Assembly (NCBI RefSeq): GCF_946479755.1
Contig: NZ_CAMLHC010000014.1
Span: 1-64,000 of the forward strand
From: an uncultured Chitinophaga sp.
GTDB taxonomy: Bacteria; Bacteroidota; Bacteroidia; Chitinophagales; Chitinophagaceae
Direction of reading: 5' to 3'
Length of the DNA stretch: 64,000 nt
In this document: positions 56,753 to 63,358 of the stretch, one piece after another
How the letters are laid out: each line of letters opens with the position of its first letter
How positions within the stretch are numbered: position 1 is the first letter of the stretch
Program-made: the position numbers and the translations under genes
The notes under the pieces: generated by a model
What the model was told of the DNA's origin: nothing
The model's input: only the letters and a program-made list of their open reading frames with translations
The model's database searches: none

Positions 56753-58426
56753 ATGAAAAAAAATGGCATAGGCGTTCGCCGCTCTATAATTGAAATTCAG
56801 AATGATTATGATGCAGGCATCAATAATGATCTGGAAAAACTAATGACAGCATGGGCGTATATTAAAGCGTTACCACCCACTGACCCCAACTCTTATTTTG
56901 TGATAGGCGGGTATCACGGAGAACCATTTGCCGGGGAAGGCGCTACAAACCCGCAATGGTGGGGTGGCTACTGTAATCACCAGAATGTGCTTTTCCCCAC
57001 CTGGCACAGGGTATATGTATACAAGCTGGAAAAAGCCCTGCAGACCACTCCTGGTTGTGAGGATGTAATGCAACCCTATTGGGATGAGACAGATTCCTAT
57101 TCAACCACATATGGTATACCGCGTGCGCTTACAGCTCCGAAGTTTACATTCAAGGGAGAGTTCCCGCAGTGTTTGCGTGATAAGGGAATTGTACCTGATG
57201 ATAATAATGCCATCGATAATCCACTGGCCTCATTTATATTCCCTAAAGAAATAACTGACCTGGTGAACAATGACGACTCAGTTTATAGCAAACCACAAGG
57301 TTACCAAACAGTAAGATACCCGCTGTCTGGCCTTGTGGGCACGCCACAGGCCCGAGCTACTACGTACGAGTATAATGCTAATTTCTTTGATCCAAACGCC
57401 AATATTGCCTTACTGAATGCGAATGTATTACAATGGCTTAATAATGTGACTTACTACATACCCGGATGTGGCCCGGGAGACGGGACAACACGACCGGCAG
57501 GTATAGCAAAGTCATTCAGTGATTGCCTTGACGCTCCTATTTATACGATATTTTCCAATACGCAATCTGCTGCTTATTATGGCAAAGGGTACACTGCCCT
57601 GGAGCATCCGCACAACGATATTCATTTAGCAGTTGGTGGTTTTACTCTTCCTGCCGGCATAAATAACGGAGGCTATGATGCATCTCAGCTACCGGACGCA
57701 AATGGTGATATGGGGGAGAATGATACGGCAGGACTGGATCCCATCTTCTTTTTTCACCACTGTAATATAGATCGTGTATTTTGGCTATGGCAGCAAAAGC
57801 AGGGTTTTACAGAACGTTTTGACATCATCGAAGACCCCGCAGATCTGGGTACCTCAAATGGTTTCAATGGCGGTGCCGGACAAGGCCCTGCCAATGGGCA
57901 AACGGAGAATGAAACACTGACTATGACAACTGCACTGAAACCGTTTATAAAAACAGGTACTACCTATTTCACATCAGAAGATTGTATAAATATTGAATCA
58001 CAGCTAAATTATACCTATACCGATGGCTCATTGTCGCAAAACGATGTTGTTGCGGCTTCAAGAGCTGCCAGCGCTGTTAATTCAAAGAGAAGCGATCTGC
58101 ATCTCTATATTTCAGGGCTCAGCAGAGGAGGTATCAAAGGCTCCTTTATTGTTGGTGTATATGCCACCAAGGGGGATGACAAAAGATATCTTGTCGGTTA
58201 TCAGTCTGTACTGAGCCGCTGGGATGTTGGTGGCTGTGCTAATTGCCAGGCGCATCTGGGAATATCCGGAGCCGTTAGTCTGAATCAGTACACGGAGGAA
58301 GAAGTCAGCGGAATGAAATTTCATCTGGAGATTTTTGGCCGTGAGAAACAGAATACAGAACGCTTTAAACAGTTCAGAGCATTGGTTGCAGCGGATACGC
58401 CGCCTTATAAGCTGGAGGTAAGGTAG
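56753..58426 (+). CDS. tyrosinase-family type 3 copper enzyme
   Basis: A 557-residue protein without a signal peptide. CuA ligands are H55 ('IGGYHGEPF'), H76 and H85 ('GGYCNHQNVLFPTWHRVYV'). C74 is two residues before H76, the spacing of the Cys-His thioether found in some fungal and molluscan type 3 copper proteins. CuB ligands are in 'LEHPHNDIHLAVGG' (H287 and H291) and 'FFFHHCNIDRVFWLWQQ' (H335 or H336). A C-terminal beta-rich region of about 140 residues may cover the active site. It oxidises phenols to quinones, perhaps for melanin-type products. It is the last gene of the unit. Confidence 0.9.
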   Translation: MKKNGIGVRRSIIEIQNDYDAGINNDLEKLMTAWAYIKALPPTDPNSYFVIGGYHGEPFAGEGATNPQWWGGYCNHQNVLFPTWHRVYVYKLEKALQTTPGCEDVMQPYWDETDSYSTTYGIPRALTAPKFTFKGEFPQCLRDKGIVPDDNNAIDNPLASFIFPKEITDLVNNDDSVYSKPQGYQTVRYPLSGLVGTPQARATTYEYNANFFDPNANIALLNANVLQWLNNVTYYIPGCGPGDGTTRPAGIAKSFSDCLDAPIYTIFSNTQSAAYYGKGYTALEHPHNDIHLAVGGFTLPAGINNGGYDASQLPDANGDMGENDTAGLDPIFFFHHCNIDRVFWLWQQKQGFTERFDIIEDPADLGTSNGFNGGAGQGPANGQTENETLTMTTALKPFIKTGTTYFTSEDCINIESQLNYTYTDGSLSQNDVVAASRAASAVNSKRSDLHLYISGLSRGGIKGSFIVGVYATKGDDKRYLVGYQSVLSRWDVGGCANCQAHLGISGAVSLNQYTEEEVSGMKFHLEIFGREKQNTERFKQFRALVAADTPPYKLEVR

Positions 58427-58476: not shown

Positions 58477-58627
58477 TTTATGGAGTGCCAAACTCAATGA
58501 TGTGTCTTTCGTTTTTATAGTATGGCCAAAGGAAAATGACTCTCTGTAATCGTTAAAGCAAACCTTGAGAACCACCCAGTCCGTGTAGTGGATAATGTGA
58601 TCGAAAAGACAGACAACACCTATAGCT

Positions 58628-58693
58628 ATATTTCTTAACTTAGTAAAAGCCGATTAACCTGTATAAAGTACGGGAAAGAAATCGGGGTTACAC
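58628..58693. repeat. 66-bp direct repeat, copy A
   Basis: It matches 63071-63136 at 62 of 66 positions without gaps, in the same orientation. The core reads TAACCTGTATAAAGTACGGG and continues into GAAATCGGGGTTA. The two copies flank the AT-rich segment of unknown and defence-like genes. Confidence 0.75.
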
Positions 58694-58774
58694 TATGAGC
58701 GTTTGTTGTAGGCGGAGCGTGACAGAGTGGAAGTATTGGAGAAGCTCCTGAATGATAAGAAGGGCGGGAAATAA
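58628..58774 (+). pseudogene. decayed tail of a helix-turn-helix-type regulator
   Basis: Conceptual translation across a frameshift and a TAG stop reads 'KYGKEIGVT', then 'YERLL-stop-AERDRVEVLE', then 'KLLNDKKGGK' and a TAA at 58772-58774. The coiled, charged ending is typical of the C-terminus of XRE-type regulators in Bacteroidota as I remember them. A perfect terminator follows. The N-terminal part is not recognisable. Confidence 0.4.
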
Positions 58775-58785
58775 GATAGTTAAAA

Positions 58786-58828
58786 GCAAACAGAAAAGCC
58801 ACTGTTACACAGTGGCTTTTCTGTTTGC
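58786..58828. terminator. strong bidirectional terminator
   Basis: Perfect 20-bp inverted repeat GCAAACAGAAAAGCCACTGT and its complement, separated by TAC, with T-rich sequence on both strands. It closes both the relic on the plus strand and the minus-strand unit ending at 58855. Confidence 0.88.
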
Positions 58829-58854
58829 TATCAGATTTGATATCGAATTTTAAA

Positions 58855-59148
58855 TTAGTTTTTCATTTTCTTCTTTTCCTCTTCCGTTAAAGGAGGCGTC
58901 GGCGGATCCTCAGGATCCACGTCATCAACTTGCTGCAGTTTAAAGTAGGTAGCCCCTTTCAAAAACTGCGGATAGCTATCCCTTAATTTTAAGAGTACCG
59001 CCGTTGGCGCAGTATCCTTAGTATAGTATTCTTTAAACTTCTCAGTACTTATTCCAATTTTCTTAGCTATATCTCCGTCAGTCAAAAAAACAGAACTAGC
59101 CAGCGCGATTTTCTTTAGAAAAACAATGGTAGTTTGAAATTCATACAT
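58855..59148 (-). CDS. small hypothetical protein with HTH-like segment
   Basis: A 97-residue protein. The N-terminal part 'FQTTIVFLKKIALASSVFLT' precedes 'GDIAKKIGISTEKFKEYYTK', which looks like a helix-turn-helix, although the fold is unproven. The C-terminus is acidic and Pro-rich ('DVDPEDPPTPPLTEEEKKKM'). It is on the same strand as, and 36 nt after, the lipoprotein gene, so they may be co-transcribed. Family not recognised. Confidence 0.6.
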   Translation of the reverse strand: MYEFQTTIVFLKKIALASSVFLTDGDIAKKIGISTEKFKEYYTKDTAPTAVLLKLRDSYPQFLKGATYFKLQQVDDVDPEDPPTPPLTEEEKKKMKN

Positions 59149-59184
59149 AAAAAAGCGGTTTAAATTATATCAAAAATACAACAA

Positions 59185-60258
59185 TTATGGTTTTGCAACA
59201 TAGTTTACTGATGTAGTACGAAAACTCTGCCTGGTTAACGGTTTCGCGTATGGAACATAGTTATATGTGTAGTTTACATAATACGTCCATGTTATAGTTA
59301 CTGCAGGACTCGGTAAAGGAGGTGCTATGGTATACTTAAGATCCATTATTTTTGTGGTACGCGTAACCGTTCTTCCATTATCCTGATAAGTTACAACCGG
59401 AAACTCAGGTCGCACTTCAATACCATTAATTTCAACTATAAATCCTCTGTCTACTTTACCAGTAGCCGCACATAAAATTTTATTATACTTTACCGGCGCC
59501 CCCGTTTCTGACATATCGACAACAGATGTTGAAATGTTGGTTGAGTAGGCTCCTCCATAAGAGGAACCACCACCAGTATCCGGATAACCTTCACCTCCAC
59601 TACTGCCATCTTCATTCAGGTAGCACTTTGTCGTTGAACCATTAAAACTGCAATACTCTTCATTGCCAACGGATGTACAATAATAGTAGTCATTGGTAAC
59701 GCATTCAACACTGCTTTCTGCCTGTGGCTTATTGGGCTCCACGAAATACGTCGTTATTTTCTTTCCAATGCCGTTGACGTATCTGAAGCTGTTGGTCACA
59801 GTTCCGTCCCAGCTCTGAACAATGATATCTCCGGTGAATTTCCCCTTCAAACTATTGCCAGCGGGGTACTTGTAGAGCACTTCGGCTTTAAACTTACTAT
59901 CGATTTTATAAAGAACGAGATAAGCATTGTTTTGCAATAATTGTTTTGTCTTCCCTTTATCACTTGATACATAGATGTTGTCTATCTTCAAAGGGACCAC
60001 TACGGTTTTTCCAAATGCCAGATTTTGAGTAACAGCCTTCGACCAATCAGCACTTTTGGCAAAGGGAAGCTTCACAATGGACTCCGGTTTTGGGGTACCT
60101 TCACCATCCTTTCCAGTAAGAACCTGGCTTTCGAAGAACAATTTGGCTTCATCCACTATGTCTGTTTGTGGAGGCGCAGTGGGATTTTCACTTTTTGTGC
60201 AGGCACACAATACAGATAAACAGATCAGGAGTAAAAACGGAAGTAATTTGGGATACAT
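59185..60258 (-). CDS. hypothetical lipoprotein
   Basis: A 357-residue lipoprotein. I start at the ATG at 60258; the frame extends two codons to a TTG. Lipobox 'SVLCACTK' (Cys at about 20). The mature part is beta-rich ('NIYVSSDKGKTKQLLQNNAY', 'GTVTNSFRYVNGIGKKITTY') with a Cys- and Gly/Ser-rich linker near 190-230 ('DYYYCTSVGNEEYCSFNGS') and a C-terminal region that may be an Ig-like fold. I do not recognise the family. It lies inside the repeat-flanked segment. Confidence 0.72.
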   Translation of the reverse strand: MYPKLLPFLLLICLSVLCACTKSENPTAPPQTDIVDEAKLFFESQVLTGKDGEGTPKPESIVKLPFAKSADWSKAVTQNLAFGKTVVVPLKIDNIYVSSDKGKTKQLLQNNAYLVLYKIDSKFKAEVLYKYPAGNSLKGKFTGDIIVQSWDGTVTNSFRYVNGIGKKITTYFVEPNKPQAESSVECVTNDYYYCTSVGNEEYCSFNGSTTKCYLNEDGSSGGEGYPDTGGGSSYGGAYSTNISTSVVDMSETGAPVKYNKILCAATGKVDRGFIVEINGIEVRPEFPVVTYQDNGRTVTRTTKIMDLKYTIAPPLPSPAVTITWTYYVNYTYNYVPYAKPLTRQSFRTTSVNYVAKP

Positions 60259-60697
60259 AATCAATATTGATTTTTAGGTTAAAAAACATTTTTTGGGACA
60301 ATCTATTATGCAGTTTCTACAGTAAATGAACGGTTATACCGATAAGTGGCTGCTGACAGGGGTATCACTTAGGTTCCTAAATATAAAATATGCATTTTTT
60401 ATAATTTACATAGTTTACAGTTATATGTAATTATTATTTAATTTAATGATTGATATTCCGCTTAGTTGCCCTCCTGCCAGACAGGATTAATGAAGTGTAC
60501 TTTCGCGAATGGCTGGTCTTGGGTTGCTTTCAGACCATTGAAATTTTCAAAACATGTCAAAAAGTAAATGAATATCATGAGAATCACTTAAAGACGGTGA
60601 AATAACGACAATTACACAATCACACCATTGTTTGCCCCCCGCCGGGAAGGGGCATGGGGGAAGGGGTGGCGTTAGCCCCTCCCCCAGAAAACCTGAT
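60259..60697. other. 439-bp AT-rich gap with a G/C-rich hairpin
   Basis: Mostly AT-rich with no gene. At 60656-60685 a stem of GGGGGAAGGGG and CCCCTCCCCC forms a strong hairpin without a T-run, just beyond the stop codon of the 60698-61063 gene. Confidence 0.5.
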
Positions 60698-61063
60698 TTA
60701 CCGAATTTCCCTCGCTCTATTCCTTAACAGGCTTGCTTCTTTCTCTTTTTCCCTTGCTTCACGCAACATAGCTGCTATGCGCCGGCGTTCTTCCTCCCAT
60801 TGAAAAACACTATCCCGGAAGGCTTGCGGGCGGGCGTTATACAGACTATCTATTTGAAACAGGAACGGACGTAGCTGTTTTCCCGCCTGTAGCTGCATAT
60901 AACGATATTTTATATCTCCTGCCTTATAAGCCTGTAAAACGGAACACGTGTTGAATAACCATACAGCCCCTAAAACAAGCAACAGGAACAAGCAGGCGGA
61001 ATGGACGTTAACTCTAGCAAAAGTTCTCTCAATAAAAAAAATGGATAATAAATTATTAGTCAA
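60698..61063 (-). CDS. hypothetical membrane-anchored coiled-coil protein (start uncertain)
   Basis: A frame of up to 121 residues with one transmembrane segment ('HSACLFLLLVLGAVWLFNTC') and a long basic/acidic coiled coil ('WEEERRRIAAMLREAREKEK', 'SLLRNRAREIR'). The only start in frame for the full length is TTG at 61063, inside the opposite gene at 61041; the true start may be closer to the membrane segment. Base composition is more GC-rich than the neighbouring genes. It may be cut by the edge of the inserted segment. Function unknown. Confidence 0.5.
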   Translation of the reverse strand: MTNNLLSIFFIERTFARVNVHSACLFLLLVLGAVWLFNTCSVLQAYKAGDIKYRYMQLQAGKQLRPFLFQIDSLYNARPQAFRDSVFQWEEERRRIAAMLREAREKEKEASLLRNRAREIR

Positions 61064-61700
61064 AACAATCTTAATCGTACTAGGTCTGTCATGCCTTACA
61101 GTAGCGATTGTTCAATTACCCGCCCTTTTTATTACATTCGATTTGACAGGATCAAAATCGGCCAATATAGGCACATCTATAGGCGGCATAACAGCTCCAG
61201 TTTTGAATACCATCACAATTTATTTTATCTGGTTAACTTTTTCTGCTCAGAAAAAAACTAATGAGGAACAGAATGGCAAAAATGATAGTGATCTCATCAT
61301 GCAACTATCTGAGCAGATGGCAGCCGACTATAACAATTTCACATTCGTGGTTAACAAGGAGACCTCGCAAGGGGACGTTATAATAAAAGAGAAAAAAGGA
61401 AGTAGCGCATTTATAGGTTATTGCCGCCATATCGAAGCAGCAACAAAGCCCTATCAAGAATTTAGAAATTCTATGTTAGGAGATGATATTTTATACATCC
61501 TCGGCTCATATGAAGTGATCATGGATAGAATTAACAATAGCTCGTTAGGAGAACAAAATAAAAAAGTCCTCTTGAAGAAAATGAAACTCTTCTATGATTT
61601 AAAGCTTGAAGCCCCGCTATCAATACTTGAAAGAGAATTCGCGGGAGAAACAGATGAGTATGCAGTTTTTGTCGTTACTTTTACTACCAAATACAGGTAA
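61041..61700 (+). CDS. putAbiC-like (abortive infection-type) two-TM protein
   Basis: A 219-residue protein; I use the ATG at 61041 rather than the longer frame. Two transmembrane segments occur early ('ILIVLGLSCLTVAIVQLPAL' and 'IGGITAPVLNTITIYFIWLT'), then a cytoplasmic helical domain of about 150 residues starting with a charged 'SAQKKTNEEQNGKNDSDLIM'. The 'IGTSIGGITAPVLN' entrance to the second helix matches the pattern I know from putative phage abortive-infection proteins (PF16872-type). It precedes a HEPN-motif gene in an AT-rich island. A defence role is inferred. Confidence 0.62.
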   Translation: MDNKLLVKTILIVLGLSCLTVAIVQLPALFITFDLTGSKSANIGTSIGGITAPVLNTITIYFIWLTFSAQKKTNEEQNGKNDSDLIMQLSEQMAADYNNFTFVVNKETSQGDVIIKEKKGSSAFIGYCRHIEAATKPYQEFRNSMLGDDILYILGSYEVIMDRINNSSLGEQNKKVLLKKMKLFYDLKLEAPLSILEREFAGETDEYAVFVVTFTTKYR

Positions 61701-61803
61701 TTATCACATATCCATTGGTCTGAAACTAAAAATGAATTATTGTAGTTGTGCCCTTTATCAGCTAGAATTATTTGTCACACAAATCTTTATCATAATTCGC
61801 CAT

Positions 61804-62922
61804 ATGAAAGCAATTATAACAACCTTAATAAGGCATCAGGGAGTATTACCTATTAAATACGAACATTGGTTCCAATTTTTATTTAAGAATAAGAAAGCAG
61901 CAATAGGTCTAAATAAGGTTACAAAGGGGATCAATGTGACGGACAATGAAAATTCACTTAAAAATGGTCAAAATTGTATAGAGTTAGAGCATTCTTTAAA
62001 CAAATTCACTAAGGGGCATATATTCAAAATAGAACCTGATGACACAGAAGATGACAATTTCAAGAACCTACATCTCTTATGGGAACCAGATAATGGAAGA
62101 GAGGTATTTATAACGGAAACCTATTTCACCGATATTTTCGTTTTTCTAGAATTTGATAATTTTAAGGAGGAAATTTACAATGATGACAACCTAAGAATAC
62201 GATACAACAAACAAATTCTGGAATGCTTAAACTTGTTTATAAAAAAATATAACAAAGTCACACGGAGTGGAAATCTAAGTCATCTTGAAAACTCCGAATC
62301 CTCTAAAGAATCTTTTGTATTAAAACAAAATTACTTTGTAATTGATGATGATAATACCTTCGAGCATTATTTGCAAAGGGGTTTAGAACTGAACATGACA
62401 GCAACTTCTTTATTTATTGAACCAGTTGGTCGATCTGGTATTATTCTAAACGATCATTCTTCGGTGAATAGCATGACCGAAGAGATGGAGAAAGAGTTGT
62501 TACAGAATATTACACTGGAAGAAGAGTTTTTATCCCATGCACTTGAACAGTACACCATCAAACAAAACTATAAATATGCATTCTTAGAAGCATTCCTTGC
62601 GATAGAATCGTCGGTAGAAAAGTTCTTAGAGGCCAAGAAAATTGAGGCCAACATTCCACAGAAAAATATTGATGACTTTAGAAGGGAAGTAGGAATAGGC
62701 TATAAAATAAATATTGAACTTCCTATTGCCCTATTAGGAAATACTCCTTCCAATTTTAATATAATGCTAAACGATCTAAATACCATTAGACAAAAGAGAA
62801 ATAAAATTGTGCATCAAGGAATTGGCATTACTGCCGCTGAGGCATATGAAGCAATAAATAAAATTTATGCTTTTGTAACCTTTTTAGAAACCAAGATAAA
62901 GAAAGAACCCACAACGGTCTAA
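61804..62922 (+). CDS. HEPN-motif protein (candidate defence RNase)
   Basis: A 372-residue protein from the ATG at 61804; an upstream start would lie in the preceding gene. The first ~270 residues resemble nothing I know. The C-terminal ~100 form a helical domain with 'FLEAFLAIESSVEKFLEAKK' and, at 332-337, RNKIVH, the R-N-xxx-H signature of HEPN RNases ('RQKRNKIVHQGIGITAAEAY'). The codon use is strongly AT-rich compared with most of the window. It follows a putAbiC-like gene by 103 nt. HEPN proteins are common RNA-cutting effectors of antiphage systems; the role here is inferred. Confidence 0.68.
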   Translation: MKAIITTLIRHQGVLPIKYEHWFQFLFKNKKAAIGLNKVTKGINVTDNENSLKNGQNCIELEHSLNKFTKGHIFKIEPDDTEDDNFKNLHLLWEPDNGREVFITETYFTDIFVFLEFDNFKEEIYNDDNLRIRYNKQILECLNLFIKKYNKVTRSGNLSHLENSESSKESFVLKQNYFVIDDDNTFEHYLQRGLELNMTATSLFIEPVGRSGIILNDHSSVNSMTEEMEKELLQNITLEEEFLSHALEQYTIKQNYKYAFLEAFLAIESSVEKFLEAKKIEANIPQKNIDDFRREVGIGYKINIELPIALLGNTPSNFNIMLNDLNTIRQKRNKIVHQGIGITAAEAYEAINKIYAFVTFLETKIKKEPTTV

Positions 62923-63171
62923 GTCCTGTCAGCTTCTTTTTTTGATCACGATAGACCCCAACAACAAAGCTCACGACTACTGCGGCATTGTAGTCTTCTA
63001 GTCATTCTTTGCTATTCTAGTCTATGAACCAAAGATTTTGAGATTAAATCCTAGAGACAATTCAAAATAGATATTTCGTATCTTAGTAAAAGCTGATTAA
63101 CCTGTATAAAGTACGGGAAAGAAATCGGGGTTATACAAAAGGAACTCAACTAAACGCTCAACTAAAAAACA
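62923..63171. other. intergenic region with repeat copy B
   Basis: No gene. It holds repeat copy B (63071-63136). Confidence 0.6.
63071..63136. repeat. 66-bp direct repeat, copy B
   Basis: Second copy of the repeat at 58628-58693, with four mismatches. It lies 73 bp from tRNA-Lys, at the right edge of the AT-rich segment. Confidence 0.75.
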
Positions 63172-63196
63172 AAACCCCGCGACTAGCGCGAGGTTT
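63172..63196 (-). terminator. terminator of tRNA-Lys
   Basis: Inverted repeat AAACCCCGCG / CGCGAGGTTT with one mismatch and a 5-nt loop. On the minus strand it is followed by TTTTGTTTTTT. Confidence 0.78.
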
Positions 63197-63208
63197 GTAA
63201 GTTGCTTG

Positions 63209-63281
63209 TGATCCCGCTGGGACTCGAACCCAGGGCCCATACATTAAAAGTGTATTGCTCTACCAACTGAGCTACGGAATC
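63209..63281 (-). tRNA. tRNA-Lys (anticodon UUU)
   Basis: On the minus strand the sequence folds into a full cloverleaf. The acceptor stem is GATTCCG / CGGGATC with one G-T pair, the D arm contains AGTTGGTA, the anticodon stem is ATACA / TGTAT with loop CTTTTAA (anticodon TTT, lysine), and the T arm is CTGGG TTCGAGT CCCAG. The discriminator base is A, and CCA is not encoded. Its 3' end faces the AT-rich accessory segment. Confidence 0.95.
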
Positions 63282-63358
63282 ATTTTCCCCTGAAGGGAGC
63301 GCGAAGGTAGTAAAAACATTTTCATCTCCAAAAAATATTCAGAAAAAATTTTTATTTC

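Follow-up and report, generated by a model that had tools for sequence, protein, structure and literature searches.

Within a 64,000-nt stretch of DNA from an uncultured Chitinophaga sp. (assembly GCF_946479755.1, contig NZ_CAMLHC010000014.1, positions 1–64,000, forward strand; hereafter the window), two neighbouring genes, ORF1 and ORF2, lie in the remains of an integrative and mobilizable element (IME) at a tRNA-Lys gene. On balance, we favour the reading that ORF2 is a single-protein, sensor-plus-HEPN abortive-infection RNase and that ORF1 is a separate passenger, both being cargo of the IME. This reading starts from what is shown below, namely the anatomy of the genes, a conserved motif, a HEPN fold in the predicted model and an origin in a mobile element. 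The principal features of the two genes are as follows.

61041–61700, plus strand: ORF1, a membrane protein of 219 aa that contains an IGxSIGGITAP segment and has distant putAbiC-like relatives
61804–62922, plus strand: ORF2, 372 aa, an unrecognised N-terminal domain followed by a C-terminal HEPN domain
62506–62907, plus strand: HEPN domain of ORF2 (residues 235–368), with VIA-align matches to HEPN proteins and Csm6
62797–62814, plus strand: RNKIVH, the predicted HEPN catalytic motif (R332, H337), invariant in 5/5 sequences

Both ORFs were confirmed as real genes, ORF1 running from an ATG at 61041 to a stop codon ending at 61700 and ORF2 from an ATG at 61804 to a stop codon ending at 62922. 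Longer ORFs called mechanically from starts at 60948 and 61606 are disfavoured, because the three close relatives of ORF2 share the methionine start at 61804 and because the DNA up to 61000 is the remnant of another gene. The GC content is 34% at 61–63 kb, compared to 39–45% at 52–61 kb and 49% at 63–64 kb, bearing out the AT-rich accessory segment described in a first-pass annotation of this DNA; its setting can now be specified as the cargo of a decayed tRNA-Lys IME. The 372-residue protein with RNKIVH near its C-terminus, as described there, is likewise recovered in ORF2, with the motif at residues 332–337.

ORF2 as a Predicted HEPN Protein

The residues R332, N333 and H337 do not vary among the five sequences available (ORF2 and four relatives), and RNKIVH satisfies the Rx4-6H pattern with a polar residue after R that is given for the HEPN superfamily (PMC3710099; excerpts of this and the other papers cited here were used). 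Of 5000 shuffled versions of ORF2, 621 also contain a match to R[NDH]x3-5H, so that the motif by itself is not significant; it is credible because it is invariant in the relatives and falls in a modelled HEPN fold. In the structural model, which was built from four sequences (mean pLDDT 70.5, pTM 0.72), the top VIA-align rows span residues 235–369 and comprise HEPN-domain proteins, HepT-type toxins and Csm6, consistent with the four-helix HEPN fold as far as a predicted model can indicate. Foldseek alone returned nothing at E 0.001 or better for this model, nor did predicted viral structures at the same threshold, and a search of PDB sequences gave no match.

The profile searches suggested in the first-pass annotation returned no HEPN family over cut-off: with an E-value limit of 1, ORF2 matches nothing in Pfam, and it matches no NCBIfam family over its cut-off. 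Pfam includes ApeA models, and ORF2 matches none of them. Below threshold, the signals agree, with a weak CARF_HEPN match of ORF2 in PADLOC, a match of the relative P0005 to PF18735 (RiboL-PSP-HEPN) at 23.9 bits (cut-off 28.4), and a weak DUF3644 match of a more distant relative at locus L098. We regard the HEPN assignment as firm for a prediction because the invariant motif, the model fold and these sub-threshold or weak profile matches are taken together; with the defence-gene context of the L098 relative (see below), they uphold the original description of ORF2 as HEPN RNase-like.

That description had also noted that the large N-terminal region is unrecognised, and this holds for both family and fold: the first ~230 residues matched no known family and gave no credible structural match. 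The modelled N-terminal region consists of strands at residues 3–12, 22–27, 30–47 and 101–117 and a helix at 128–153. No 19-residue Kyte-Doolittle window of ORF2 exceeds 1.5, and the protein has no hydrophobic segment.

Distribution and Genomic Context of ORF2

Using sequence similarity, we identified three relatives of ORF2, all from metagenomes, in 5.77 billion clustered proteins (41–48% identity over 98% of its length), and a profile search returned the identical set of four, ORF2 included. Whole genomes yielded one full-length relative, in G298 (locus L098, 22% identity). Four overlapping genome draws were searched, with matches in 2/394 genomes of the family draw (one rejected), 0/395 of the phylum draw, 2/396 of the order draw (G298 once more and one HEPN-only match) and 0/395 of the class draw; the empty phylum and class draws say little because neither included a genome known to match. 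No match to ORF1 or ORF2 was found by tblastn against plasmids and phages, and peptide-pattern scans of GTDB species genomes and IMG/VR, run with no positive control, returned 69 and 193 stretches, respectively, none of them an ORF2 relative. Overall, the distribution of ORF2 appears sparse and patchy.

Two candidate relatives were dropped. The match in G116 (L082) has an E-value of 9.3e-4 and an internal stop, with no HEPN-like ORF among those listed for the site, and the match in G1080 (L159) covers the HEPN part alone and represents another HEPN protein. We did note that at L159 (G1080:C70) the gene for this different HEPN-type protein immediately follows one for Abi_alpha (PF14337, 6.4e-35), which makes the locus a further candidate for a two-gene abortive-infection system.

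At L098, an FRG-domain gene (PADLOC PDC-S15, 7.3e-24) directly precedes the ORF2 relative in the same orientation, and the relative is convergent with an HNH_5 gene, while AbiGi, reverse transcriptase and caspase-like genes occur within ~5 kb. These surroundings look like a defence island, the context in other genomes that the first-pass annotation had proposed to look for, here at the one full-length relative with visible context. They also bear on the suggestion that ORF2, as a HEPN protein, serves in RNA processing or regulation with no defence role, or is simply a disused cargo gene. The decay of the surrounding element and the sub-threshold PADLOC match of ORF2 would both suit such a gene; however, the reading frame is intact, the motif is conserved, defence genes surround the L098 relative, and the occurrence is patchy (three relatives among the clustered proteins and one full-length relative in the four draws of 394–396 genomes), and we therefore consider this reading improbable.

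In the mechanism that we favour, the N-terminal domain of ORF2 would sense something that phage infection produces or brings about, a role that is our guess, and sensing would unleash the C-terminal HEPN domain. The latter may then act as a dimer via R332 and H337, cutting RNA and halting the infected cell. The RNase activity, dimerization, phage trigger and cell arrest are all inferred from the HEPN family. ORF1 would be a separate, co-travelling membrane protein, perhaps a defence gene in its own right (again a guess).

ORF1 and the Question of a Two-Gene System

Where putAbiC (PF16872) has an N-terminal two-helix module, ORF1 has one clear hydrophobic segment at approximately residues 3–38 (top 19-residue Kyte-Doolittle window among those listed, 2.29) and a second, weaker one at residues 47–65 (1.51). 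The protein has no Pfam or NCBIfam match over cut-off, PF16872 included, and no PADLOC match; it does match phrog_8999 (function unassigned) at 6.4e-7. A search of the protein database returned nothing besides ORF1 itself, and 8 of 294 family genomes encode relatives at 26–33% identity. ORF1 is not visibly truncated, since the best of these aligns over residues 10–218. In an alignment of ORF1 with ten relatives (A3), P53 is fully conserved, and I47, G48 and G49 nearly so. A single one of the 11 members passes PF16872, a distant relative (1.3e-17) whose alignment with ORF1 covers residues 6–77. The putAbiC-like membrane protein of the first-pass annotation thus stands as a membrane protein with a putative N-terminal membrane module like that of putAbiC and one PF16872-positive relative among ten, whereas ORF1 itself does not pass the profile. 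No paper came up in a literature search for putAbiC or PF16872. Among the loci of ORF1 relatives, L092 carries ORF1-like genes in tandem pairs of themselves, and L096 also carries E1-like and JAB-like genes, as judged by eye.

The first-pass annotation had proposed that the two genes form a membrane sensor and RNase effector pair and had named a lack of joint conservation among the results that would refute it. In such a system, ORF1 would detect an envelope event or anchor a complex and ORF2 would be the RNase effector, following the HEPN-TM design. The two genes lie on the same strand, 103 bp apart, with no terminator-like site found between them, they share one foreign cargo stretch between pieces of the IME, and HEPN-TM systems have been published on phage-inducible islands (PMC12948488, PMC11087260; excerpts). 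However, no ORF2-like gene was found around ORF1-like genes in eight genomes (7–16 kb each; L100 by tblastn alone), no ORF1-like gene was found in the 19 kb around the ORF2 relative at L098, and ORF1-like genes also occur in tandem with themselves (L092). The two families were hence never found together in nine loci, a sample with only one locus holding an ORF2 relative and with the P0004–P0006 loci outside it. The pairing of ORF1 and ORF2 is not supported by these comparisons, and a single two-gene system seems to us somewhat unlikely.

A second two-gene arrangement would be a toxin-antitoxin-like module, in which ORF2 is the toxin and ORF1 an antitoxin or inhibitor, chiefly stabilising the mobile element. 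HEPN toxins do occur in pairs such as MntA-HepT, structures of which are matched by the ORF2 model, and both genes are mobile-element cargo. MntA-HepT is marked by an adjacent minimal nucleotidyltransferase, whereas no such domain was found by Pfam in eight ORFs of the region, ORF1 and ORF2 included. Further, ORF2 is 372 aa long, compared to 120–148 aa for the aligned single-domain HEPN chains, and the two families are unpaired elsewhere in our sample. We thus give this arrangement little credence.

Comparison with Known Systems

The favoured single-protein reading of ORF2 has its closest counterpart in Tha (PMC11087260), a HEPN anti-phage system that is carried by S. aureus prophages and activated by tail proteins. 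In the excerpt available, Tha is, like ORF2, a single protein on a mobile element with a C-terminal HEPN RNxxxH motif (RNSIMH in Tha, RNKIVH in ORF2) and an N-terminal part with no recognised domain, while Tha-1 is 301 aa long with an N-terminus predicted at low confidence and the N-terminus of the 372-aa ORF2 is partly well predicted. The two are likened by architecture. HEPN effectors with diverse N-terminal domains have been catalogued (PMC3710099), and among these, ApeA (NTD-HEPN) similarly joins an N-terminal accessory domain, beta-rich in ApeA, to a HEPN RNase domain with the Rx4-6H motif; from the same excerpt, ApeA-NTD1 measures ~300 aa, compared to ~230 aa for the ORF2 N-terminus. The HEPN-TM systems of phage-inducible islands, which we compared by their description, resemble the segment in that a mobile element carries genes for a HEPN protein and a membrane protein together (PMC12948488, excerpt), but the ORF1–ORF2 pair was not seen elsewhere in the nine loci. 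A HEPN effector with its own N-terminal domain would therefore be of a known kind.

If the favoured reading is true, ORF2 would represent a seldom-found family of HEPN RNases whose sensing domain is unrecognised and which the Pfam, NCBIfam and PADLOC profiles scanned do not cover. A more far-reaching version, in which ORF2 is the first member of a new family of HEPN defence proteins with an N-terminal phage sensor of unrecognised fold, works in this organism with the distantly putAbiC-like ORF1, and was brought in together with it by a Chitinophaga tRNA-Lys element whose defence slot is exchangeable, is in our view unlikely.

A Decayed Mobile Element at tRNA-Lys

Comparison with other Chitinophaga loci, chiefly L156 (genome G813), resolved the DNA around ORF1 and ORF2 into the following parts.

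58628–58693, plus strand: left copy of a 66-bp repeat, an old right-end piece lacking the tRNA-side part
58715–58835, plus strand: remnant of an IME regulator gene 3′ end with terminator hairpin, 84% to L156
58836–60591, no strand: insertion separating IME pieces that are contiguous in L156, with 97-aa and 359-aa ORFs on the minus strand
60592–61000, minus strand: remnant of the 3′ part of an IME 199-aa gene, 84.7% DNA identity to L156 and 80% protein identity over residues 100–199, broken at 61000/61001
61001–63058, no strand: cargo stretch with ORF1 and ORF2, no DNA match in 16 Chitinophaga loci compared
63071–63207, plus strand: IME right end, the 66-bp repeat and ~71 bp to the tRNA 3′ end
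63208–63281, minus strand: tRNA-Lys (ttt), the integration target

L156 holds an intact-looking element, comprising an att-like remnant, an integrase (455-aa frame, PF00589 over cut-off), regulators, the 199-aa gene, cargo, the right end and tRNA-Lys, with genes that we take by eye for a relaxase and MobC between the 199-aa gene and the cargo. In the window, the right end and tRNA-Lys junction (63071–63284) shares 93.5% DNA identity with L156, and the second IME piece ends at 61000 or 61001 when compared to L156, L118 and L120. With matches to L156 on both flanks and none across 61001–63058, ORF1 and ORF2 therefore sit where the mobilization genes and native cargo of the element would be. Only one of 12 L156 proteins, the 199-aa one, matches the window at E 0.01, the integrase and mobilization genes being gone. 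We thus interpret ORF1 and ORF2 as cargo of a decayed IME at tRNA-Lys(UUU), a remnant and not a working element, which would have integrated at the tRNA 3′ end and afterwards lost its integrase and mobilization genes. Like other tRNA-gene IMEs, it targets a tRNA 3′ end and has a fixed right end and a variable cargo slot, to which L156 adds integrase and mobilization-like genes, whereas the window retains only the ends, gene remnants and cargo.

The two copies of the 66-bp repeat (58628–58693 and 63071–63136) are 94% identical, and the right copy opens a 137-bp block abutting the tRNA-Lys(ttt) 3′ end. We considered whether the two copies could simply be the attachment sites bounding a single 4.4-kb element and rejected this: the repeat exists in many copies in Chitinophaga and forms part of the element's right end, and no tRNA-side part accompanies the left copy. 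In 58622–58835, the left copy adjoins the regulator-gene 3′ remnant, and this region is regarded as the scar of a deletion and not as a functional end because stops break all three frames.

The 1.76-kb segment at 58836–60591 is taken as an insertion because the flanking IME pieces adjoin each other in L156. It encodes a lipoprotein-like 359-aa ORF (59185–60264, minus strand) and a 97-aa ORF (58855–59148, minus strand), neither with a Pfam match over cut-off. Further left, at 56753–58426, a tyrosinase-family gene (PF00264, 1.1e-41) lies beside a gene for a 529-aa protein with no Pfam match.

The tRNA-Lys Cargo Slot

At E 1e-10, 84 copies of the 66-bp repeat were found, distributed over 32 of the 79 Chitinophaga genomes. 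Among 41 copies examined, 26 have tRNA-Lys in the locus, with the tRNA 3′ end 125–139 nt from the repeat start in 23 of these; the remaining 15 include seven that retain the exact 17-base tRNA end and seven with a degenerate one. In several genomes, repeat copies are serially arranged in the same orientation. tRNA-Lys(UUU) is an insertion hotspot in Chitinophaga, where a right-end block is conserved at constant spacing from the tRNA, the cargo varies and insertions recur in series. Defence-cargo hotspots in mobile elements have been described for P2 and P4 (PMC9122126, excerpt), while a literature search on a Chitinophaga tRNA-Lys IME defence hotspot, judged by titles, found none.

To survey the cargo, the 41 repeat loci were reduced by the 15 without tRNA-Lys and by three without an inside ORF of 150 aa, leaving 23 innermost ORFs, of which 20 were scanned (L133, L137 and L146 were left out). 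Four of the 20 match PADLOC at E 1e-5 (L111, L130, L132 and L140), the L140 cargo as AbiU. In a control of 82 ORFs from nine Chitinophaga loci, 30 PADLOC families were matched, and each of the 25 that were listed is an AbiEi or AbiEii family with a single member, the simplest reading being that the control holds two distinct defence members. The Fisher p for cargo versus control is 0.013 if the control count is 2/82 and 0.22 if it is 7/82, and the enrichment of the slot in defence-like cargo is suggestive only. If true, the Chitinophaga tRNA-Lys cargo slot would be a place to seek further unlisted defence genes systematically.

By eye, further defence-like cargo was seen beside the right-end repeat, including a CBASS-like nucleotidyltransferase (L128, L129), an OLD-like nuclease (L120), an S8 peptidase with an ATPase (L118) and a DUF3644-like protein (L138). 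At the same tRNA-Lys site in Chitinophaga eiseniae DSM 22224 (L122, ~9.1–15.9 kb), ORF1 and ORF2 are absent, and an apparent peptide precursor with ATP-grasp-like and transporter genes was noted, also by eye.
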